A stretch of DNA of 64,000 bases, from NCBI GenBank assembly GCA_947166305.1, contig CAMVDV010000007.1, positions 20,982 through 84,981 on the forward strand, given 5' to 3'. The notes beneath the pieces are model-generated. The model saw nothing but the letters and a program-made list of their open reading frames with translations, did no database searches and had not been told where the DNA came from. Of this stretch, positions 7,021 through 63,671 are shown piece after piece (the stretch's first letter is position 1; every line of letters begins with the position of its first letter). The position numbers and the translations under genes are program-made. The stretch is from an uncultured Prevotellaceae bacterium. GTDB taxonomy: Bacteria; Bacteroidota; Bacteroidia; Bacteroidales; Bacteroidaceae.

Positions 7021-7098
7021 TGTCCGTTGCTTCATCATCATGAAGCAATTGCTGCATCATGTATAAGCAATTGCTGCAACATGATGAAGCAATGAGAA
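7021..7098. repeat. 22-bp-period array, AAGCAATTGCT family
   Basis: AAGCAATTGCTGCATCATGTAT (7043-7064), AAGCAATTGCTGCAACATGATG (7065-7086), partial third unit; degenerate unit at 7021-7042. Confidence 0.8.
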
Positions 7099-7136: not shown

Positions 7137-7937
7137 ATGGAAAAGCTTAATGTCATAAAGGTAGGAGGCGGCGTAGTGGAGAATGCCGCCTCGCTCAGTT
7201 TGCTCCTGGAGCAGTTCGCGCAGATGCCCGGCCGCAAGGTCCTGGTGCATGGCGGCGGACGGTTGGCCACGTCGGTGGCAGCCAGCCTCGGCATCGAGAG
7301 CCGCATGGTGGGCGGACGGCGCATTACCGACGAGGAGATGCTCCGCGTGGTGACGATGGTCTATGGCGGCCTCGTGAACAAGAACATCGTGGCCGGACTG
7401 CAGGCAAAGGGCGTCGCTGCCATCGGGCTGACGGGCGCCGACGGCGACATCATCCGCAGCCATCGCCGGCCACCCAAGCGCGTCAGGATGGACAACGGCA
7501 CGGAGCAGACGGTGGACTTCGGTTTCGTGGGCGACGTCGACAAAGTGGATGCCGGGCTTCTCTCCCAGCTCATCGAGGCCGGACGCGTGCCCGTCATCGC
7601 TCCACTCACGCACGACGGCCGGGGGAATATCCTCAACACCAATGCCGACACCATCGCCTCGTCCGTAGCCATCGCCCTCGCCGAGCACTACGACACCACG
7701 CTCACCTTCTGCTTCGAAAAGGCCGGAGTGCTCCGCGATGCCGACGACGACGGCAGTGTCATCCCGCTCATCACGGAGGAACAGGCTGCCGGACTCGTCC
7801 GCGACGGCATCATCTCCGGCGGCATGATACCGAAGATAGAGAACGCCTTCAGTGCCATCCGCAGGGGCGTCGGGCAGGTCGTCATCACACACTCCGAGGA
7901 CATCGGCGGACATCACGGAACGATGTTGAAAAGTTGA
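7137..7937 (+). CDS. argB: Acetylglutamate kinase
   Basis: MEKLNVIKVGGGVVEN, VLVHGGG, NTNADTIASSVAIAL. ATG at 7137 preferred over the ORF-track start at 7059, which lies in a repeat. Confidence 0.93.
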   Translation: MEKLNVIKVGGGVVENAASLSLLLEQFAQMPGRKVLVHGGGRLATSVAASLGIESRMVGGRRITDEEMLRVVTMVYGGLVNKNIVAGLQAKGVAAIGLTGADGDIIRSHRRPPKRVRMDNGTEQTVDFGFVGDVDKVDAGLLSQLIEAGRVPVIAPLTHDGRGNILNTNADTIASSVAIALAEHYDTTLTFCFEKAGVLRDADDDGSVIPLITEEQAAGLVRDGIISGGMIPKIENAFSAIRRGVGQVVITHSEDIGGHHGTMLKS

Positions 7938-7970
7938 AAAGTTAAAAGGTTAAAAAGTTAAAAGGGGAAA
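7924..7970. repeat. 8-bp word array GTTRAAAA covering the argB stop codon
   Basis: gttgaaaagttgaaaagttaaaaggttaaaaagttaaaagg. Confidence 0.85.
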
Positions 7971-8056: not shown

Positions 8057-8554
8057 ATGGAAAACATCAGCTTCCGGACCACCGTTTTGCCGCTGAGCGA
8101 CAGGCTCTTCCGCCTGGCTCTGCGCATCACGATGAACAAGGCAGAGGCCGAAGACGTGGTGCAGGACACGCTCCTCCGAGTGTGGGAGTGCCGCGGACAA
8201 TGGGAGCAGATAGGCAGTCTCGAAGCCTTCGCCATCGCCACCTGCCGCAACCGCGCACTCGACGTCAGTAAGCGTGCCGGACGAAACGCTCGCTCGCTCG
8301 ACGAGATAGACGGCGGCCAACGCTCAACGGCCAACGCTCAATCAGAGCTGGAGGCACGCGAAGAAATCTCTCTCATCCGCCGTCTCATGGACGAACTCCC
8401 CGAGCTGCAACGCACCATCATGCTGCTGCGCGACATCGAAGGACAGTCGTATCAGGAGATTGCCCAAGCCCTCAGCATCAGCGAGACACAGGTGAAGGTC
8501 TATCTCCACCGCGCCCGGACGAAGATCAGAGACGGATTAGGGAATAGAGATTAG
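8057..8554 (+). CDS. ECF-type RNA polymerase sigma factor
   Basis: Region 2 EAEDVVQDTLLRVWE; region 4 LRDIEGQSYQEIAQALSISETQVKVYLHRARTKIR. Confidence 0.95.
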   Translation: MENISFRTTVLPLSDRLFRLALRITMNKAEAEDVVQDTLLRVWECRGQWEQIGSLEAFAIATCRNRALDVSKRAGRNARSLDEIDGGQRSTANAQSELEAREEISLIRRLMDELPELQRTIMLLRDIEGQSYQEIAQALSISETQVKVYLHRARTKIRDGLGNRD

Positions 8555-8592
8555 GGATTGTTGGATTAGAGATTAGGGATTAGGGAATAGGG
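8534..8592. repeat. GATTAGGGA/GAATAGGG short-word array covering the sigma-factor stop codon
   Basis: gattagggaatagagattagggattgttggattagagattagggattagggaataggg. Confidence 0.8.
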
Positions 8593-9363: not shown

Positions 9364-9393
9364 GGCACGCATGGTAGCGCTACCATGCGTGCC
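9364..9393 (-). terminator. Perfect 30-bp palindrome, likely terminator of the minus-strand MFS operon
   Basis: GGCACGCATGGTAGC/GCTACCATGCGTGCC; minus-strand reading is followed by TTTTTTT. Confidence 0.8.
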
Positions 9394-9408
9394 TTTTCTA
9401 TAAACTTT

Positions 9409-9470
9409 GCCTGCGGCGATGTCTGTTTCAGCCTGTGGCGTTTGCCGACATCGCCTGCTGCGTTTCAAGC
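9409..9470. repeat. 22-bp-period array (degenerate)
   Basis: gcctgcggcgat at 9409, gcctgtggcgtt at 9431, gcctgctgcgtt at 9453: exact 22-bp phasing. Confidence 0.65.
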
Positions 9471-10702: not shown

Positions 10703-11800
10703 TTATCTGTCCAGTTCGTTCAAGGCAAAAGCGTAGGCACCGTACATGATGGACGTGCTGGCACCGTTCTTGCTCAAGCCCACGCAGACGCTTCGCTGGC
10801 GAAGATAAGGCTGCACGTTGGCCGTGCGAGGCACGATGACGCTGTCCATGCCTAAAGAAAGGAACCACTGACGGTCGGCTGGGTCTTCCCAATTGTACGT
10901 CTCCATCTGCAGAATCGGGAAACGACTTCCGCCGAAAGTGCCCACGCTGCCATGCAAGGCGTCCATCACTCCGGGCAGGATGTACTTGCCTGCACCGGCC
11001 AGTCCGCCGCCAATGCTGACGATGCCGTCGGCAATGTCGAGGGCTGTGGCAATGGCTTCGCCTGCCACCTGACCAAGTTCGCGGAAGCTCTGACGTGCTG
11101 CGTCGGCGTTGCCCGGCTGCTCTCCCTCGGCAATGAGGAAGATGTCGTAGGGCGTCAGCTCGTCAACAGGCTCGTCTGAAAGCTCGTGATAGACACGGCG
11201 AACGGCACGGATGCTGACGCTTTCCTCTGCTATCAAGTCGGGATACTTGTTGTTTCTCATGCACCAAACGTCGCCGCCGCAGCCGTTGTCGCCTCGCAGC
11301 AAAGTGCCGTCGATGACGACTCCGCCGCCAAAACCTGTGCCGAGGGTGATGCCGATGAGATTCCTGTAGCGCCGCTGGTTGCCGGCTTCCTCGAGGGCAG
11401 CATTCACTTCGGGCAGCAATCCGGCAAGCGCTTCACCATAGGCAAAGAGGTTGCCATCGTTGTTGATGAAGACGGGCACTTTGAAGACGCTCTCGAGATA
11501 AGGCCCGAGTGCAATGCCGCCACGGAAGGCAGGGAAATTAGGCAAGTCGCCAATGATGCCGTGTTCGTAGTCGGCAGGGCCGGGGAAAGCAAAGCTGATG
11601 GCAGACGGTTTGCCCTTCATCTTCTTCAAGACGAGGCGGAAACCTTTCTCGAGCGTGTCGAGACAGCCTTCGATGTCGTCGCTGACGGCATCCAGGCGAA
11701 TGGGTTCTACAATCTCCTTGTATCCCTGCATGGCAGAGAATACGAAGTTCGTGCCGCCAGCATCAAGGGTCAGCACGATGCGGTTGTCGTTGGTATACAT
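10703..11800 (-). CDS. ROK-family sugar kinase
   Basis: LTLDAGGTNFVFSAM, GITLGTGFGGGVVIDGTLLRGDNGCGGD; likely start MYTNDNR at 11800. Confidence 0.9.
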   Translation of the reverse strand: MYTNDNRIVLTLDAGGTNFVFSAMQGYKEIVEPIRLDAVSDDIEGCLDTLEKGFRLVLKKMKGKPSAISFAFPGPADYEHGIIGDLPNFPAFRGGIALGPYLESVFKVPVFINNDGNLFAYGEALAGLLPEVNAALEEAGNQRRYRNLIGITLGTGFGGGVVIDGTLLRGDNGCGGDVWCMRNNKYPDLIAEESVSIRAVRRVYHELSDEPVDELTPYDIFLIAEGEQPGNADAARQSFRELGQVAGEAIATALDIADGIVSIGGGLAGAGKYILPGVMDALHGSVGTFGGSRFPILQMETYNWEDPADRQWFLSLGMDSVIVPRTANVQPYLRQRSVCVGLSKNGASTSIMYGAYAFALNELDR

Positions 11801-11843
11801 GGTTGTTGTTGTTATGGGTTCGTTATGATGTTGTTTCAACTTT

Positions 11844-11910
11844 CGTTATGACGTTATCTCGTTATGACGTTATCTCGAATTTCGTTATAACGTTATTTCG
11901 TTATGACGGG
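11844..11910. repeat. 8-bp word array CGTTATNN
   Basis: cgttatga cgttatct cgttatga cgttatct ... cgttataa cgttattt cgttatga. Confidence 0.85.
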
Positions 11911-11917
11911 GTTTGCC

Positions 11918-13735
11918 TTAAACTCTCACTGAGGCCTTGATGGTCATGCATTCTCCGCCGAGGGGTTTGATAACGTAGCGTCCCACGCAGGCCGGGATGA
12001 TGAAGGTCTCGGCATAATGTACTTCAAAGGGAGCAAATGCACCCGAAGGGCTTTCGACGACGGCTGCCTCACCGTCCACGAGGTTGAGGACGTTCACGCC
12101 GCCCTTCGTATCGTGTTCTACGGGACGGGAGAAGGTGTGACGCCGTGTCTCGATGAACTCGTTGGGATGCAAGCCGGTGCGTTCCTCCTTGATGCCTGGC
12201 TCTTCGTGGAGCACTTCGAAATGATTGGCAATCTCTCGCTTGACGAATGGCGTGGTGCGATTCCACTGGATGACGTGCTTGCCGCGCTCCACGTTGATGG
12301 GCCTCGGCTTGCCGTCAAGTCCGAGTCGTGCCCAGTCCCAAAGCTTGAAGGTGAAGATACTTGGCGTTGAGCTTATCTCGAGCACCATGCTGTTTGCACC
12401 GGAACAATGGATGGTGCCGGCAGGGATGAGGTAGTGGTCGTGCTTTTTGGCAGGCAGCTTGTTGACGTACTTCTCTGCGTCGAACAGAATTTCTCCCCTT
12501 TGTGCAGCTCGAAGGTCTTCTATCATCTGCACTTTGTCGATGCCTTCCTTCAGGCCGAGATAGACCACGGCATCTTCTCCGGCATCCAGGAGATAATAGC
12601 TTTCGTCCTGAGTATAGGGCAGACCGAACTCTTTGTAAGCAAACTCGTTGGTGGGATGCACCTGTAGGCTGAGGTTTCCTCCGCCGATGGTGTCGAGGAA
12701 GTCAAAGCGGATGGGGAACGACTTGCCGAATCGATGCCACACTTGTTCGCCGAGAAGCTGGTGAGCGTGAGCCAGCACGACGTCCTGCGAAGGCAGTTCG
12801 AAGAGCGTGCCGTCGCCTTCCAGATAGAGGCTGTTCTCCTCGGGCACACAGTCGAAGCACCAGCCATAGTTCACCTCCTCGCGTGGAAGGTCGCAGACTT
12901 CCTTCATCCATTGTCCGCCCCAAGGTGCGGGGTCGAAGAAGGGGACGACGCGGAAGGGCTTCTGCGACGTGCGTTCCAAGCCCTGACGCATCTGTCCGTC
13001 GGTGATCATCTTAGGTTCGTCGCGGCGGTTCGAGTCAATCCAGAACTGGATGCTTCCGCTTTGCATCAGCTCGTCCTTGTAGCGGTCCAGGATGTTCCAG
13101 TCGTTGAAGTAACCTCTCTTATATTGCACGGAGGGACTGTCGTCGCGATTGTCGATGCCGAGCGCCTTCACTTCGTGGCGACGGAAGCGCTGCTGAATCT
13201 CCCATCGCGCCATGTCGGCATAGACCGTAGGAAAGGTGAAATGAAAAGATGAAAATGTGGAATCGTGAAAATGTGATTTTTTGAATTTGTCAATTTGTGA
13301 AATTGTCAAATTGTCAAATCGTGAAATTGTCAAATCGTGTAGCTTCTGCGCGACAAAGGCAGCGCCCGAGCCGATGACGATGCAGGGCCTGTCATTATGA
13401 ATTGTAAGTTGTGAATTATGAATTGGCCCGAAGTACTCTTCCAGGCGAATGTTCGACATATATCCGAACAGCACGTCGTCGGTCATGAAGCGTTCCGTGA
13501 GCTGCCGAAGCTCCTGCTCCGGCCGCATCAGCGAGCGCGTGTCGATGATTTGACGTCCCGTCTTGCTGAAAGCTTCGATGAAGTCTTCTTCGTAAGTGCC
13601 GCTGTAGAGGTCGACGACCCACACGGGTTCGTCGGCCCAAGCTGCACTGAGCGTCTCGACGATGCTGTCCCAACCTCTGATTACCTTGCCCTCGATGTGC
13701 GTGGAGGGCTGCTTGTCGTAGTTGCTTTTTCTCAT
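11918..13735 (-). CDS. manA: Class I mannose-6-phosphate isomerase with long N-terminal region
   Basis: DTIGGGNLSLQVHPTNEFAYKEFGLPYTQDESYYLLDAG, GTIHCSGANSMVLEISSTPSIFTFKLWDW. Confidence 0.88.
   Translation of the reverse strand: MRKSNYDKQPSTHIEGKVIRGWDSIVETLSAAWADEPVWVVDLYSGTYEEDFIEAFSKTGRQIIDTRSLMRPEQELRQLTERFMTDDVLFGYMSNIRLEEYFGPIHNSQLTIHNDRPCIVIGSGAAFVAQKLHDLTISRFDNLTISQIDKFKKSHFHDSTFSSFHFTFPTVYADMARWEIQQRFRRHEVKALGIDNRDDSPSVQYKRGYFNDWNILDRYKDELMQSGSIQFWIDSNRRDEPKMITDGQMRQGLERTSQKPFRVVPFFDPAPWGGQWMKEVCDLPREEVNYGWCFDCVPEENSLYLEGDGTLFELPSQDVVLAHAHQLLGEQVWHRFGKSFPIRFDFLDTIGGGNLSLQVHPTNEFAYKEFGLPYTQDESYYLLDAGEDAVVYLGLKEGIDKVQMIEDLRAAQRGEILFDAEKYVNKLPAKKHDHYLIPAGTIHCSGANSMVLEISSTPSIFTFKLWDWARLGLDGKPRPINVERGKHVIQWNRTTPFVKREIANHFEVLHEEPGIKEERTGLHPNEFIETRRHTFSRPVEHDTKGGVNVLNLVDGEAAVVESPSGAFAPFEVHYAETFIIPACVGRYVIKPLGGECMTIKASVRV
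13234..13341. repeat. In-frame A/T-rich 8-bp word array inside manA
   Basis: gtcaattt gtgaaatt gtcaaatt gtcaaatc gtgaaatt gtcaaatc gtg, translated DLTISRFDNLTISQIDKF. Confidence 0.85.
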
Positions 13736-14375: not shown

Positions 14376-14441
14376 ACTCGTTAGTAAATGGCAAATTACT
14401 CGTTAGTAAATGACGAATTACTCGTTAGTAAATTGCTATCG
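14376..14441. repeat. 22-bp-period array, ACTCGTTAGTAAAT family
   Basis: ACTCGTTAGTAAATGGCAAATT / ACTCGTTAGTAAATGACGAATT / ACTCGTTAGTAAATTGCTATCG. Confidence 0.9.
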
Positions 14442-20777: not shown

Positions 20778-20865
20778 AACGGCGAAGGGTTATTCAAAAA
20801 ACGGCGAAGGATTATGTCAACAATGCTGAAGGGTTCTGCCCACAACGGCGAAGGATTATTTCCGG
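20778..20865. repeat. 22-bp-period array, AACGGCGAAGGRTTAT family
   Basis: AACGGCGAAGGGTTATTCAAAA / AACGGCGAAGGATTATGTCAAC / AATGCTGAAGGGTTCTGCCCAC / AACGGCGAAGGATTATTTCCGG. Confidence 0.9.
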
Positions 20866-21020: not shown

Positions 21021-21365
21021 ATGCCCTACAATCCTAACAAAGAGCTGAAGAAATACTACGGCATAGCCGAGGTGGCGGAGCAGTTCGGCGTGGCCGAGTC
21101 GCTGCTGCGCTACTGGGAAAAGGAATTTCCCAACATCAAGCCCCGCAAGAGCGGCCGCGGCGTACGTCAGTACACAAAGGAGGACATCGAGGAAGTGCGC
21201 ATCGTCTACAACCTGCTCAAGGTGAGAGGCATGAAGATAGCCGCAGCCAAACAGGTGCTCAGCAAGAACAAAAAAGCCGCCACCGACACGTCGGAAATCA
21301 TCGACCGCCTGGAATCCATCAAGGCCGAACTGAAAGAAATCAGCCGCGAGCTGGGCGAACTCTGA
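21021..21365 (+). CDS. MerR-family transcriptional regulator
   Basis: KKYYGIAEVAEQFGVAESLLRYWEKEFPNIKPRKSGRGVRQYTKEDIEEV. Confidence 0.92.
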   Translation: MPYNPNKELKKYYGIAEVAEQFGVAESLLRYWEKEFPNIKPRKSGRGVRQYTKEDIEEVRIVYNLLKVRGMKIAAAKQVLSKNKKAATDTSEIIDRLESIKAELKEISRELGEL

Positions 21366-21367
21366 AT

Positions 21368-21477
21368 CGTCGGCAGCGGCGACGGACATCTCCGCGTGCC
21401 GCGATGAGGATTTCCGCGTGCCGCGATGAGGATTTCCGCGTGCGGAGATTGGCAACGCCGCGTCCGTCACGTCCGCC
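21368..21477. repeat. 22-bp-period array, YCGCRNGCG family (5 units)
   Basis: CGTCGGCAGCGGCGACGGACAT / CTCCGCGTGCCGCGATGAGGAT / TTCCGCGTGCCGCGATGAGGAT / TTCCGCGTGCGGAGATTGGCAA / CGCCGCGTCCGTCACGTCCGCC. Confidence 0.9.
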
Positions 21478-25744: not shown

Positions 25745-25825
25745 ACCGCACGCGACGATGCCAATCGCCGCACGCGGAGATCAGCAACGCCGCACGCGGA
25801 GATTCTCATCGCCGCACGCGGCGTT
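25745..25825. repeat. 22-bp-period array, YCGCRNGCG family (4 units)
   Basis: accgcacgcgacgat-gccaatc / gccgcacgcggagat-cagcaac / gccgcacgcggagat-tctcatc / gccgcacgcggcgtt; degenerate upstream unit. Confidence 0.9.
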
Positions 25826-30976: not shown

Positions 30977-31040
30977 CGTCGCAGCCGGAGATTGCAAACG
31001 TCGCAGCCGGAGATTGCAAACGTCGCAGCCTGCGTTTTTT
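30977..31040. repeat. 22-bp-period array, YCGCRNGCG family (3 units)
   Basis: CGTCGCAGCCGGAGATTGCAAA twice identical, then CGTCGCAGCCTGCGTTTTTT. Confidence 0.9.
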
Positions 31041-37932: not shown

Positions 37933-38020
37933 CGCCGCAGGCGACGATGCCAATCGCCGCACGCGGAAACCGCCAACGCCGCACGCGACGATGACCATCG
38001 CCGCACGCGGAGTCCTGAAC
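37933..38020. repeat. 22-bp-period array, YCGCRNGCG family (4 units)
   Basis: CGCCGCAGGCGACGATGCCAAT / CGCCGCACGCGGAAACCGCCAA / CGCCGCACGCGACGATGACCAT / CGCCGCACGCGGAGTCCTGAAC. Confidence 0.9.
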
Positions 38021-43540: not shown

Positions 43541-43628
43541 CGCCGCCTGCGACGATGCGAATCGTCGCGTGCGGCGTTGCACGTTTCCGGCTGCGGCGAT
43601 GCTGATCGTCGCAGGCGAAGTTTTTCTG
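43541..43628. repeat. 22-bp-period array, YCGCRNGCG family (4 units)
   Basis: CGCCGCCTGCGACGATGCGAAT / CGTCGCGTGCGGCGTTGCACGT / TTCCGGCTGCGGCGATGCTGAT / CGTCGCAGGCGAAGTTTTTCTG. Confidence 0.9.
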
Positions 43629-48650: not shown

Positions 48651-51600
48651 ATGAACATCAGACGCTCTCTTACGGCAGCTATCTGCCTAATGCTTTATTT
48701 CGTCGGCTTTTGTGCGGACGCCCTGTCTGCGCTCCCTGCCAATGCCTCGGGCGGCCTGCAGGTCGTGACCTCGCCCACCGACGGCTGCTTCCCCATAGCG
48801 GGGCAGACGACTTCCGACAAGGCCATCATCCTCTACGACGCCAACGACGCTGAGGTGGTGCAGACGGTCATCGACTGTCTGATATCCGACCTCAAGGCTG
48901 TGACGCGCAAGACCTTCATAAAATACAAGACGGAGCCTTCGTCGCTGAAGAATCCCATCATCGTGGGCACCATCGGGCAGTCGAGTCATGTCGACAAGCT
49001 CATTGAGGAAGGCAAGCTGGACGTGTCGGACGTGGAGGGACGCTGGGAGGTTTTCGGCCTTCAGGTGGTGGACGCGCCGATGGAGGGTGTGGACAAGGCC
49101 CTCGTCATCTTCGGCTCGCAGCCCCGCAGCACGGCCTACGGTGTGTTCCACCTCAGCCGCTTGATGGGCGTGTCGCCTTGGATATGGTGGGCCGACGTTG
49201 CGCCTTCCACGAAAACGCAACTCTACGTGACGCCAGGACGCTTTGTCTCCAAGTCGCCATCGGTCAAGTTCCGAGGCATCTTCCTCAACGATGAGGACTT
49301 CGGGCTGCTTCCTTGGGCCAAGAAGAAGATGGACAGTGCGTATGGGAACCTCGGCCCTAACACCTACGCCGCCATCATGGAGCTGCTGCTTCGCCTTCGT
49401 GCCAACACGCTTTGGCCTGCCATGCACGCCGGAAGCCGTGCCTTTTGGGACCAGAAGGCTAACATCCCGCTCATCATGAAGTACGACATCTACATGGGCT
49501 CCAGCCATTGCGAGCAGATGCTCCGCGACAATGAGTGGGAATGGAACCGCTATGGCGGTCACTACAACGATGACTGGCGGTGGGGAACGAACAGGGAGAT
49601 GATAAAGCGCTACTGGGCTGAGCGCGTGGGCGAAAGCCGTGGGAAGAATGCCATCTACACGCTTGGCATGAGAGGCGTACACGACTCGGGCATCAACGGC
49701 TACAATTCCACCGCCGAGCGCGTGGCTGCTCTCACCGACATCATTGCCTATCAGCGACAACTCCTTGCCGACAGCATCGGCGACCCCACGCAGATTCCGC
49801 AAATCTTCATTCCCTATAAGGAAGTGCTCGACTGCTATAATGCCGGACTCCAAGTGCCCGACGACGTCACCCTGATGTGGGTGGACGACAACCACGGGTA
49901 CATCCGCCAGATGCCTACGCTGCAGGAGCAGGCACGGAGCGGCGGCAATGCCATCTACTACCACCTCTCCTACTGGGGCTCGCCTGACTCCTACCTCTGG
50001 CTCAGCACCATCTCGCCCTCCCTCTGCAGCTTCGAGCTGAGCAAGGCTTATGACCAGGGCATCCGGAACCAGTGGATTATCAACGTCGGCGACATCAAGC
50101 CTGCCGAGGAGGAACTGGAGTTCTGCATGGATCTGGCTTGGGACATCGATAGCTGGACGCCCGACAATGCCTGGAAATATACACGGGAATGGGCGGCACG
50201 GACTTTCGGAGAAGACCTTGCCGACGAGATTAACGACATCAAGATGACGTTCTATCGGCTCGGCATCGCTGCCAAGCCGGAGCACGTCCAGCTTTGTCAT
50301 TTCGATTATTCCAATGCTCAGATCGACGCACGCATCGCCGAGTATCAAGATCTCTACCAGAGAGCCGTGGCTCTGCGCTCACGCATCCCGTCGTCACTCC
50401 GCTATGCTTACTATGAACTCGTGGAGTATCCTGTCTGTGCCTGCACTGACCAGAACATCAAACTGCTGCGTGCAAGGCAGAGCTTCGTGTACGCTTGGGC
50501 CGGACAGGGCGAGAAGGCTCTCTCCTACTCCACTGCCGCGGAGTCGGCATTCGAGGAGATAAAGACGCTGACCAACAAGTACAACAACGGCATAGCCGGT
50601 GGCAAGTGGCAGGGAATGATGGACTATAAGCCCAACAACTGGAGCCAGCATCTGATGCCGGCGGTGGCTTCTGCGACAGACGTGGCAGGCAGTCAGAGCA
50701 GCATCCTTGAGCCTGACATCTGCATCGTAGGCGGAGGGAGCTTCGTGCAGGCTTCGCCGTCGGTGAAGAGGCTGAAGGGTCTTGGCATCACCGGCACGTC
50801 GGCAAGCATCTGGCCGCTCGACATGACGAAGTACACCGATGCCGCCTCTGCGCCCTACGCCGAGTACAGTGTGACCGTGCAGAAGGGGCTGAACGTCATC
50901 CAAGTGCGCTGTCTGCCCACTTTCCCCATTAACACCGGCTACGACCTGCGTGCCGCCATCTCCGTCGACGGCAGTCCTGCCTCCATTATCTCCATAAAGC
51001 TTTCGGCCATGACGGACAACTGGGACGAGACCGTGGCACAGGGCTACATCCCTGCCGCCGTGCACTATGTGAGCACGGAGCAGAAGAATGTCACCGTCCG
51101 CGTGAGCTTCATGGACCCTGGCCTCACGGTGAGCGCCGTGGCAGGCTTGCCTTTTGCTGCCGGCGAGGAAGACCTCACGGGGCTTATCACGAACCCTGAC
51201 TTCGAGTACGGCGCGGGCGGACAGCTCAATCCGCAGGGCGGACTCGTCCGAGGCGTGCCCCAAGGCTGGCGAGCCACGGGCACGATGAACGGCAACTCCT
51301 GGGGCATCAACCAGGATGCCAAGCATCTCTACGGCATCAACACCTACTGGGCGAGTGCCAAGCCCATGCCAAACGTCTATGAACTCTCGCAGACCATCCC
51401 CGCCTCCAAGCTCGGTGCAGGCACCTACCTCGTGACCTGTCTGCTCGGGACGCAGAAGGACAAGCTGGCCACCTGCCGCCTCTTTGCCAACAAGAACGTG
51501 CAGTACTACGGGAAGGAAAGCGACTACAAGGAGTCGATGCTGACGGCGGGCGAGCAGAACACGTTCGCCGGCTACGGAGCATCCGGCTCGGGAAAGATGA

Positions 51601-51935
51601 CACTCAAGCAGATGGCCGTGATGGTGACGCTCGAGGACGGCGAAAGCCTCAAGCTGGGCATCCGCTCGAGCAACTACAAAACCGACGGAACGCGCTCCTC
51701 GGGCGACAGCCACGGATGGTTCAAGGTGGACCACTTCCGCCTGCAGCGCATCGACGCAAAGGAGATTCCGTCCGGCCTGAAAGACCTGAATGTCAGCAAC
51801 GACGTGAAAGACCTGAAGGAACAGTGCTACGACCTGAGCGGCCGAAAGCTCGGTGAGCTGCCTCGAGGAAGCCGACAGAAGGGACTTTTCATCGCCAAGA
51901 AGGCCGACGGAGGCTTCGTGAAACTGATCCGCTAA
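48651..51935 (+). CDS. Glycoside hydrolase family 115 protein (alpha-glucuronidase family)
   Basis: STAYGVFHLSRLMGVSPWIWWADVAP, KFRGIFLNDEDFGLLPWAKK, GNLGPNTYAAIMELLLRLRANTLWPAMH, YYHLSYWGSPDSYLWLSTISP. Confidence 0.93.
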   Translation: MNIRRSLTAAICLMLYFVGFCADALSALPANASGGLQVVTSPTDGCFPIAGQTTSDKAIILYDANDAEVVQTVIDCLISDLKAVTRKTFIKYKTEPSSLKNPIIVGTIGQSSHVDKLIEEGKLDVSDVEGRWEVFGLQVVDAPMEGVDKALVIFGSQPRSTAYGVFHLSRLMGVSPWIWWADVAPSTKTQLYVTPGRFVSKSPSVKFRGIFLNDEDFGLLPWAKKKMDSAYGNLGPNTYAAIMELLLRLRANTLWPAMHAGSRAFWDQKANIPLIMKYDIYMGSSHCEQMLRDNEWEWNRYGGHYNDDWRWGTNREMIKRYWAERVGESRGKNAIYTLGMRGVHDSGINGYNSTAERVAALTDIIAYQRQLLADSIGDPTQIPQIFIPYKEVLDCYNAGLQVPDDVTLMWVDDNHGYIRQMPTLQEQARSGGNAIYYHLSYWGSPDSYLWLSTISPSLCSFELSKAYDQGIRNQWIINVGDIKPAEEELEFCMDLAWDIDSWTPDNAWKYTREWAARTFGEDLADEINDIKMTFYRLGIAAKPEHVQLCHFDYSNAQIDARIAEYQDLYQRAVALRSRIPSSLRYAYYELVEYPVCACTDQNIKLLRARQSFVYAWAGQGEKALSYSTAAESAFEEIKTLTNKYNNGIAGGKWQGMMDYKPNNWSQHLMPAVASATDVAGSQSSILEPDICIVGGGSFVQASPSVKRLKGLGITGTSASIWPLDMTKYTDAASAPYAEYSVTVQKGLNVIQVRCLPTFPINTGYDLRAAISVDGSPASIISIKLSAMTDNWDETVAQGYIPAAVHYVSTEQKNVTVRVSFMDPGLTVSAVAGLPFAAGEEDLTGLITNPDFEYGAGGQLNPQGGLVRGVPQGWRATGTMNGNSWGINQDAKHLYGINTYWASAKPMPNVYELSQTIPASKLGAGTYLVTCLLGTQKDKLATCRLFANKNVQYYGKESDYKESMLTAGEQNTFAGYGASGSGKMTLKQMAVMVTLEDGESLKLGIRSSNYKTDGTRSSGDSHGWFKVDHFRLQRIDAKEIPSGLKDLNVSNDVKDLKEQCYDLSGRKLGELPRGSRQKGLFIAKKADGGFVKLIR

Positions 51936-51950
51936 GGGGGAGAGACGAAA

Positions 51951-52035
51951 CGTCGCGTGCGGCGATGGCAATTTCCGCGTGCGGCGACGGGCATCGTCGC
52001 GTGCGGCGTTGGCCATCGTCGCACGCGGCGTTTTC
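51951..52035. repeat. 22-bp-period array, YCGCRNGCG family (4 units)
   Basis: CGTCGCGTGCGGCGATGGCAAT / TTCCGCGTGCGGCGACGGGCAT / CGTCGCGTGCGGCGTTGGCCAT / CGTCGCACGCGGCGTTTTC. Confidence 0.92.
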
Positions 52036-52038
52036 ATT

Positions 52039-53001
52039 CTACTCGAACGAAAGATACGGACGGAGCCTGTCGATGTCGCTTGGACGGAAGGCGTCGAGGC
52101 GCGAAAGCTCGTCGATTGAGCGCAGATTGCCCTTGTCCTGGCGGTGCTCGAAGATGGCCTTGGCCTGATAGAAGCTCAGATAGGGATGGCGCATCAACTG
52201 CCTCACGGAGAGCTTGTTGACAGGAATCTTCCTGACCTCCACGGGCGTGAGCGTCATATACTTCAGCACCGTGTCGGGCATCTCGATGGCCTCCATGGCC
52301 TGCTCCACGTTGACAAAGCCACCAAGCGTCTGCCTGTAGGCCACGATGCGTGCGGCCCGCTTGCTGGCGATGCCGGGGATGAGCTTCAGCATGGCAGTGT
52401 CGGCCGTGTTGATGTCAACGGTCTCGCCGGCAGAAAGCTTGGGCATTAGTCCCACTCCAGGCCTCTCTGAATCTCCGCTCAAAAGGGAGACTTTGGGCAC
52501 AGAGTCGGCCCTTGCTTCCGTCGTCATGCTTTCTTTCTCCTCCTCCAGAGGGGAGTGAGAGGGGGCACGGAGGCGTCGGTGAGGTTCAACAAAGCGGAAC
52601 CTCTCCTCTATCCTAATGTAAGGCCGGAGCCTCTGCCACTGCTCGTTGGTGAGATACGGCACGTTCATGAAGTCCTCCGGCGTGTGGTAACGTCCCAACC
52701 TGGCGCGGTAGCGATAGATACTCCTCACCTGCCAGGGCGACAACCCCAGCCGGAGCAAGGCGGTGCTGTCGGCCGTGTTGGGGTCAAAGGGGAACGTCTC
52801 CACCTTGCGCTCAGGCTCGGCATAGGTGAAAGGCTTGGCCGGAGCATTAGACCACGCTCGCCGTTCCACCACTTCCTGCGAAGGAGATTGGGGAGTCCTG
52901 CCCTTCCAGACGGCTATTGCCACAATGCCCAGGAGCAGCACCCATTCGAGCAAAAGCAGGGCACGGCGCTGAGCCTTGGTCAGTGTGGGCAAGCGTCTCA
53001 T
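52039..53001 (-). CDS. Helix-hairpin-helix (ComEA-like) protein
   Basis: ETVDINTADTAMLKLIPGIASKRAARIVAYRQTLGGFVNVEQ; N-terminal TM segment. Confidence 0.88.
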   Translation of the reverse strand: MRRLPTLTKAQRRALLLLEWVLLLGIVAIAVWKGRTPQSPSQEVVERRAWSNAPAKPFTYAEPERKVETFPFDPNTADSTALLRLGLSPWQVRSIYRYRARLGRYHTPEDFMNVPYLTNEQWQRLRPYIRIEERFRFVEPHRRLRAPSHSPLEEEKESMTTEARADSVPKVSLLSGDSERPGVGLMPKLSAGETVDINTADTAMLKLIPGIASKRAARIVAYRQTLGGFVNVEQAMEAIEMPDTVLKYMTLTPVEVRKIPVNKLSVRQLMRHPYLSFYQAKAIFEHRQDKGNLRSIDELSRLDAFRPSDIDRLRPYLSFE

Positions 53002-55883: not shown

Positions 55884-56273
55884 ATGCTTCATAAATATCT
55901 GTTTCGTTATCCTGTGACGCTGCTTTTGGCCGTAGTGATTGTCTTGCTTTCCATGCTTCCGATGCCCGACCTGAAGGTGGGAGTGGAGGTTCCGCTTGCC
56001 GACAAATGGACACACATGGTGATGTACGGCGTGCTGACGCTGGTGGTGTGGGTGGAGTATCGCCGCAGTCACGACCGTCCGGACTGGCCGCGTCTGCTGT
56101 TGCTGGCTTTTGTGGCTCCCATCGTCATGGGCGGTGCCTTGGAACTGGCACAGGCAAACCTGACCACTTGCCGTAGCGGTGAGTGGCTCGACTTTGTGGC
56201 CAACACCATTGGTGTCTGCCTGGGAGCGCTGGGCGGACTGGCGATGAAGAAGGTTAAAAAGTTAAAAGGTTAA
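55884..56273 (+). CDS. VanZ family protein
   Basis: LSMLPMPDLKVGVEVPLADKWTHMVMYGVLTLVVWVEYRR. Confidence 0.88.
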   Translation: MLHKYLFRYPVTLLLAVVIVLLSMLPMPDLKVGVEVPLADKWTHMVMYGVLTLVVWVEYRRSHDRPDWPRLLLLAFVAPIVMGGALELAQANLTTCRSGEWLDFVANTIGVCLGALGGLAMKKVKKLKG

Positions 56274-56358
56274 AAAGTTAAAAAGGGGAAATCCCCCGGC
56301 TTCCCCTTCGCTCCTTTCTTTTTAACTTTTTAACTTTTTAATTTTTCACCTTTTCAAC
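56250..56358. repeat. Inverted GTTAAAAA word arrays spanning both stop codons of a convergent gene pair
   Basis: aaggttaaaaagttaaaaggttaaaaagttaaaaaggggaa ... ttccccttcgctcctttctttttaactttttaactttttaatttttcaccttttc. Confidence 0.9.
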
Positions 56359-57146
56359 TGCTGTACGGGGAAGTCGAAATAGGTGTCGGGGAATGGCTCG
56401 TCGCTGAGTGTGAAGTGCCACCACTCGGTGGGGAACGGTTTGAATCCGTGGCGCATCATGGCTTCGCGCAGTATCATGCGGTTGCAAAACTGTTCGCGCG
56501 AAATGCTCCGTCCGGCGGGGCTGGCTGTGTTCTGGCCTGTGTACTCGCCCGTCTCGGGGTCTCCGCAAAAGTCAGGATGGCTCTCGGGACCGAACCAATC
56601 GAACGTCCCTCCCATGTCGACTTCCTTTTCCTTCTGCATATCGAAGAGCGTGAGGTCAACGGTGGAGCCTCTCGTATGCCCGCTTTTGGCACAGATGTAC
56701 TCGCGCTCGAAGAGGACGCTCTTGTCGAGGTCGGGATAGAAATAGCGTCGCATGAGCGTGTCGGGAATGTTCTCCGCCCATCGCCAGAAGTGGTCAACGG
56801 CACGCTGCGGGCGGTAGGCATCGTAGATCTTCAGGCGGTAGCCCATCTCCCTGAGTTCGTCGCTGACTGCCCGAAGGCTGTCGGCGGCCTGACGTGTGAG
56901 CAGGGCTGTGGGCTCGAGATAGCCGTCGATGCGTGTGCCGACGAAGTTGTATGTGCTGAAGTACCTGATTTCCAGTATGGCATCGGGTACAGCATCGGTC
57001 AACGTCACGAACTGGCTGGAGTCTTCCGTCGGGTTGGAAGGACGGTTCTGAAGGTGATTGACGAGACGGACGCCAGCATACGCGAGCACGATTGGCAGGG
57101 CGATGGCCACCAGCAGATACAAGTTTCTTTTCTTCATGATATTCAA
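56346..57146 (-). CDS. M15 family D-alanyl-D-alanine dipeptidase
   Basis: LEIRYFSTYNFVGTRIDGY, YDAYRPQRAVDHFWRWA, SGHTRGSTVDLTL, EWWHFTL. Confidence 0.93.
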   Translation of the reverse strand: MNIMKKRNLYLLVAIALPIVLAYAGVRLVNHLQNRPSNPTEDSSQFVTLTDAVPDAILEIRYFSTYNFVGTRIDGYLEPTALLTRQAADSLRAVSDELREMGYRLKIYDAYRPQRAVDHFWRWAENIPDTLMRRYFYPDLDKSVLFEREYICAKSGHTRGSTVDLTLFDMQKEKEVDMGGTFDWFGPESHPDFCGDPETGEYTGQNTASPAGRSISREQFCNRMILREAMMRHGFKPFPTEWWHFTLSDEPFPDTYFDFPVQQLKR

Positions 57147-57176: not shown

Positions 57177-57264
57177 ATCGCAGCACGCGGAGATGGTCAT
57201 CGCAGCGTGCTGCGTTTGGCATCGCAGCGTGGGGCGTTGGCCATCGTCGCGTGCGGCGTTTGAC
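57177..57264. repeat. 22-bp-period array, YCGCRNGCG family (4 units)
   Basis: ATCGCAGCACGCGGAGATGGTC / ATCGCAGCGTGCTGCGTTTGGC / ATCGCAGCGTGGGGCGTTGGCC / ATCGTCGCGTGCGGCGTTTGAC. Confidence 0.92.
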
Positions 57265-61871: not shown

Positions 61872-61905
61872 CGTTATGACGTTATAACGTTATTTCGTTA
61901 TGACG
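61872..61905. repeat. 8-bp word array CGTTATNN
   Basis: cgttatga cgttataa cgttattt cgttatga. Confidence 0.85.
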
Positions 61906-63605: not shown

Positions 63606-63671
63606 GACCCATGCGCATGGAACGATGGACCCATGCGCATGGGTCGATGGTTCCATGCGCATGGGTCAAAC
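63606..63671. repeat. 22-bp-period array of CCATGCGCATGG palindromes (3 units)
   Basis: GACCCATGCGCATGGAACGATG / GACCCATGCGCATGGGTCGATG / GTTCCATGCGCATGGGTCAAAC. Confidence 0.93.

Follow-up and report, generated by a model that had tools for sequence, protein, structure and literature searches.

The focal array (51951..52030) sits between two genes that converge upon it, a glycosyl hydrolase family 115 (GH115) gene on its left (48690..51935, + strand) and a helix-hairpin-helix (HHH) protein gene on its right (52039..53001, − strand). It comprises four quasi-palindromic cores of 14 bp, in the order CGTCGCGTGCGGCG, TTCCGCGTGCGGCG, CGTCGCGTGCGGCG, CGTCGCACGCGGCG, with 8-bp linkers and with T-tracts that point outward at both edges. 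Like the other arrays described here, it is given without a strand. The window, by which we mean the whole 64-kb stretch of DNA that was analyzed, had been credited in an earlier note with twelve period-22 arrays, and an array was present at every one of the twelve positions. TRF called 10 of the 12 at period 22 with scores of at least 77, and an autocorrelation scan picked up the array at 43541..43628. The array at 9409..9470 is a weak and degenerate one of three units, lying just past a canonical terminator (about 9365-9396).

The main, or GC, family accounts for the arrays at 21368..21477 (downstream of the ORF at 21021-21365), 25745..25825 (four units, the last being CGGCGTTTT), 30977..31040 (between convergent QueG-like and PHP genes), 37933..38020 (downstream of a DUF2851 gene), 57177..57264 and, more weakly, 43541..43628. 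Other families supply four arrays: a TTGC..CATG..GCAA family at 7021..7098 (three units); a TTACTCGTTAGTAA family at 14376..14441 (three units) and a AACGGCGAAGGATTATT family at 20778..20865 (four units with little palindromy), both in gaps called divergent; and a GACCCATGCGCATGGGTC family at 63606..63671 (three units with GTTTG..CAAAC edges). In the copies of this last family that we read (63606-63671 and loci L032, L034 and L040), the half-sites flanking a linker are one of GAC and one of GTT type, and its arrays usually end in GTTTG..CAAA.

A second class of repeat shares the window. These are AT-rich tandem repeats of period 7-8 (GTTAAAAA, CGTTATGA, TTGTCAAA), found at 7925-7963, 11820-11908, 13265-13335, 56250-56283, 56318-56359 and 61872-61905; repeats of period 8 number about 5 per 100 kb genome-wide. 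GGATTAG heptamers are repeated at 8534-8592.

Period and phase of the arrays

Autocorrelation across the window gave eight period-22 clusters with more than 75% self-match over 40 bp, and none at periods 21 or 23; the other matches fell at periods 8, 9, 16, 18, 24, 39 and the harmonic 44, mostly at 8 and 44. For the rest of the genome, the period statistics come from stretches of sequence together with whole-genome pattern searches. A 400-kb sample, drawn from other contigs of the source genome's 2.94-Mb assembly, contained 15.8 period-22 arrays per 100 kb against 0-0.5 at periods 19-21 and 23, and with a looser threshold 464 kb yielded 85 period-22 arrays against 0-4 at seven control periods. 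The excess is strong and the neighboring periods are almost empty. Extrapolated, the sampled rate suggests some 500 arrays in the whole genome. The core of the main family, CGCCGCACGCGNNG, has 187 copies genome-wide and its reversed control none. The expectation that the arrays would be nearly all intergenic held overall, with 4 of the 85 sampled arrays overlapping called genes.

Each main-family unit joins a core of 14 bp, which reads CGYCGC-AC-GCGRCG either directly or as the reverse complement, to an 8-bp linker. Across 43 arrays and 167 units, the center reads AC 81 times, GT 70 times, and the symmetrical AT and GC once each; since nearly all centers are asymmetric, the units have a polarity, and they flip in place. 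Thirty of the 43 GC-family arrays have exactly four units. In all families, 3-5 units predominate, and the median array length is 78-86 bp under a detection scheme that requires about 58 bp and that shorter arrays would escape.

How rigid is the spacing? We searched the whole genome for pairs of main-family 9-mers separated by 2-32 unconstrained bases, so that unit spacings of ~11-41 bp were allowed. The search returned 128 direct and 15 inverted pairs, and reversed controls returned none. All 100 direct pairs among the matches listed (of 128) span 31 bp, a unit spacing of 22 bp, and all 15 inverted pairs, each of which appears on both strands, span 32 bp, which again puts the centers 22 bp apart. 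This exact phase lock upholds the geometry behind the earlier proposal that successive units present the same face of the DNA. Dyad symmetry exceeds that of column-shuffled controls in a profile test of 182 arrays (mean z 1.9, SE 0.10), which replaced a consensus-only test that proved too weak; taken one by one, about half of the 182 fail to reach p<=0.05 for palindromy. T-tracts pointing outward mark the outer edges, where T has frequencies of 0.65, 0.85, 0.73 and 0.47, compared with 0.26, 0.81, 0.37 and 0.07 in internal linkers. One linker motif, TTGSCA, is enriched across families (9.6/kb vs 2.2/kb in the genome), the figures averaged over families being only 21% vs 6%.

Gene ends, and the turnover of sequence between species

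In gaps of 60-800 bp, arrays occupy 36 of 73 convergent gaps (49%), 94 of 346 codirectional gaps (27%) and 9 of 87 divergent gaps (10%), as judged from gene calls made by a purpose-written codon-based script, in which single gene contexts may be wrong. The difference between divergent and convergent gaps is significant (p=5e-8). A canonical terminator lies outside the array at 15 of 72 convergent ends that have an array and is present at 35 of 74 that do not (p=0.0009), and this shortage of canonical terminators supports a role for the arrays in ending transcription units. The corresponding trend in codirectional gaps is non-significant (p=0.08).

Arrays of this kind are found in uncultured rumen and gut MAG loci labeled Bacteroidaceae, Bacteroidales or Prevotellaceae. 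The 182 arrays form 31 families under average linkage (single linkage merged most of them), and 41 of the 44 GC-family arrays come from the source genome (G000). Each species has its own dominant families, and several coexist within one genome. Arrays are fewer in more distantly related members of the genus, and 296 kb from 16 other families within the order gave two weak matches, both statements resting on small samples per genome.

When the orthologous gaps of about 15 related MAGs are compared, many prove to contain an array that has period 22 but is unrelated in sequence. The focal GH115-HHH gap has CGTCGCGTGCGGCG units here, GGTTAACC in genomes G012 and G024, and AAGGTACGTCGATTTGCCCAAC in G005. 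In G005, too, the gap corresponding to 57177..57264 carries CCCCTATAGGGG units instead, and that corresponding to 63606..63671 carries CCCTATAGGG units. The QueG-PHP gap has other unit families in other species, and the DUF2851 gap has at least seven unrelated period-22 unit families across species. Pooling syntenic genomes, an array is present in 10 of 17 orthologous gaps whose window counterpart has an array and in 2 of 53 whose counterpart has none (p=2.6e-6), a co-occurrence that is due in part to the preference of arrays for transcription-unit ends in every species and that comes from comparisons sharing phylogeny. Among the MAG loci, the fraction of orthologous array pairs that are unrelated goes from 0 of 5 at flank identities of at least 90% to 44% at 85-90% and 95% at 80-85%. 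Turnover proceeds site by site: L114 and L131 have different families at one site and matching families at another, and within L114 two unit types share a single register. One orthologous site in G012 and G024 differs by an exact 14-bp microinversion with arms TTAACC..GGTTAA (TATTTGGCAATAAT vs ATTATTGCCAAATA). This turnover, the substitution for terminators and the inversions in place go beyond what the earlier note had observed. Its central idea, that period and not sequence is the defining trait, gains support from unrelated families that keep one period and from the turnover at orthologous sites. Related species keep an array and its spacing at a given gene end while its sequence is exchanged, and this pattern suggests that geometry, rather than sequence, defines a DNA element serving as boundary or terminator.

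Over short distances, the arrays are constrained. Between G012 and G024, nine arrays have 5.5% substitutions against 11.6% in their 60-bp flanks (p=9e-6), a figure that leaves out replaced arrays (L114/L131); with these included, the array-flank difference has p=0.09. Counted separately over gaps, arrays show 3.3% and the remaining intergenic DNA 9.5% (p=3e-7). Between close relatives, arrays are kept 2-3 times better than flanking DNA, with indel depletion reaching only p=0.06, and homogenization between units could contribute part of the signal.

Lattice on DNA, hairpins in RNA, or repeats without a task

Our preferred reading, to which we give a probability a little below one half (about 45%), is that the arrays are boundary or terminator elements at the ends of transcription units, each a putative protein-bound lattice on double-stranded DNA. 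With usually 3-5 dyad-symmetric sites per array and a center-to-center distance of exactly 22 bp, close to two helical turns, putative protein dimers would line up in a row along a single face of the DNA. The resulting lattice might stop or pause RNA polymerase arriving from either side, or might instead act as a topological barrier, and would thereby replace an intrinsic terminator. Several families per genome would call for several proteins or for one protein that reads shape; in the 464-kb sample, no expanded family of DNA-binding paralogs offered a candidate. We infer that a protein binds the arrays and blocks polymerase, and the turnover of sequence may mirror shifts in binding specificity among coexisting families.

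The strongest rival operates in RNA. Tandem hairpins could serve as bidirectional intrinsic terminators or as stabilizers of 3' ends, and the sequence could turn over since any palindrome would suffice. The gene-end location and the partial exclusion of other terminators suit this explanation. So do the outward T-tracts at the edges, which are strongest in convergent gaps (58% with >=4 T of 5, a stronger capping than in codirectional ones), and the folding of arrays, which is better than that of period-preserving column shuffles (mean z -1.9). The mismatches speak differently. On the transcript strand of 68 codirectional palindromic arrays, G-U (130) is not above C-A (139), whereas terminator-like hairpins of the same genomes, detected by a scheme that scores G-U and C-A alike, show 76 vs 41 (difference from arrays p=0.003). 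Half-sites within units showed no covariation in the 43 main-family arrays and their 167 units, and unit orientation relative to transcription has no strand bias (52 vs 43). With no wobble signature, no covariation and no strand bias, the palindromy looks to be maintained in double-stranded DNA. In codirectional arrays, moreover, T-caps are as common at the entry edge as at the exit edge, and hairpins have no need of an exact 22-bp spacing. We consider the RNA explanation unlikely, though a contribution from RNA at convergent arrays may be real, given that pairing is better in terminal units (20/82) than in internal ones (20/162; p=0.03) and that T-caps are strongest there. Of the two options the earlier note had left side by side, cooperative protein binding fits better, and repeated RNA hairpins fare poorly on wobble, covariation and orientation. 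Compared with intrinsic (bidirectional) terminators, the arrays have the same gene-end location, palindromes and edge T-tracts, and at convergent ends they partly substitute for canonical terminators; they differ in their multi-unit fixed register, in lacking wobble preference and covariation, and in their entry-side caps.

A second rival, which we rate as improbable, holds that these are selfish mobile repeats of REP or MITE type with a preference for inserting at gene ends, whose species-specific families spread and displace one another. High-copy families that are species-specific are what it would predict: 57 copies of the exact GC tandem pair were counted in G000, against one in G012 and none in 39 other genomes. 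One genome also houses multiple families. REP/BIME repeats are indeed the nearest kind by location and style. Like REP, BIME and REPIN elements, the arrays are short, palindromic, high-copy and intergenic, in partly species-specific families, lying for the most part downstream of genes in unidirectional or convergent arrangement and depleted upstream. Those elements belong to GTAG and CGTC super-families, the CGTC REPs having stems of 8-9 bp and occurring mostly as head-head dimers, rarely in clusters (PMC3733652, PMC2817692, PMC3116915). The defining REP features that we tested are absent from the arrays, whose units are tandem at a strict 22-bp center spacing, neither carry an unpaired GTAG/CGTC end tag common to families nor form head-head dimers, and occupy positions that outlast the family. 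RAYT-linked mobility was rejected, as the RAYT transposase family (PF01797) has no match in array-bearing G005, G008, G012, G016 and G024 (72-92% complete); G000 has two marginal matches, at 23.8 bits (cut-off 23). The GC family has no match in viral contigs, and arrays of G024 with closely pairing flanks in G012 are nearly all present in G012 too. Retention of an array at orthologous sites while its family changes, and the constraint on arrays, also weigh against mobility.

Nor do other named repeats fit. BrickBuilt, a minisatellite/MITE of Porphyromonas gingivalis, is made of tandem 23-nt repeats with a leader, a tail and terminal inverted repeats, in 19 copies of 84-991 nt and variable unit number (PMC4596501). 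The arrays resemble it in being tandem, intergenic and in Bacteroidales; unlike it, they have period 22 (23 being nearly absent), usually 3-5 units and dozens of unit families, and the orthologous gaps and flanks that we compared share no BrickBuilt-style leader or tail. CRISPR was ruled out, in agreement with the earlier note, as units are contiguous with 8-bp linkers and there are no unique spacers. Among curated Rfam RNA families, tRNA gave the sole match in the window. Neither of the outcomes that the earlier note would have taken as refutation, a lack of period-22 excess and a match to a named family, was obtained, and we found no description of such arrays in the open-access literature, of which our coverage was partial. 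They belong to the broad kind of dispersed intergenic palindromic repeats. Bacterial repeat families are normally recognized by sequence; what is conserved here is the place, the period and the symmetry, and searches by sequence therefore miss the arrays.

The remaining rival, that slippage and palindrome template switching build and homogenize 22-bp arrays at tolerant gene ends as a by-product without function, would account for the microinversion between palindrome arms, the flips of orientation in place and the mixed unit types in one register at L114, but we think it just as improbable as mobility, since arrays evolve more slowly than their flanks, unit number clusters at 3-5 (and at four in the GC family) and one period is common to unrelated families in many species; the earlier judgment that slippage alone would not suffice is sustained.

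Protein-binding repeats of 22 bp are known from plasmid iterons (such as R6K), the TnsB sites of Tn7 and the end sites of phage Mu. These share with the arrays a row of sites about two helical turns long, binding by one protein being a feature of the known systems; they are tied to a replicon or a transposon end, whereas the arrays lie at hundreds of chromosomal gene ends and in many families. The Tn7/Mu-type domain Mu-transpos_C (PF09299) had no match in 31 genomes, a search in which control genomes were equally silent. A wider version of the protein reading, which we hold more tentatively, is a boundary system of the chromosome that passes on position and 22-bp dyad spacing, whereas the recognized sequence changes fast, rather as in centromere satellites, with rapidly evolving putative DNA-binding proteins capping transcription units in both directions. 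Were the protein reading true, the arrays would point to a new layer in how gut and rumen bacteria end their transcription units or organize their chromosomes, and would offer a bacterial model of rapid co-evolution between DNA sites and their binders.

Repeats of other kinds at and beside array sites

Loci L104, L102 and L116 contain tandem repeats of period 21, which in L104 and L116 lie beside period-22 arrays. L106 carries GGATTAG heptamers at the site downstream of the DUF2851 gene (at about 17660) where other species have a 22-bp array, and in its QueG-PHP gap (10888-11210) a ~41-bp tandem repeat, GCTCGCGGGGCTCCCGC, takes the place of a period-22 array. In several species, a GTGGGCGCTGAGGGATTCGTTCCGGC-like stretch adjoins the arrays, as downstream of 4413 in L105 and at the same site in other MAG loci.
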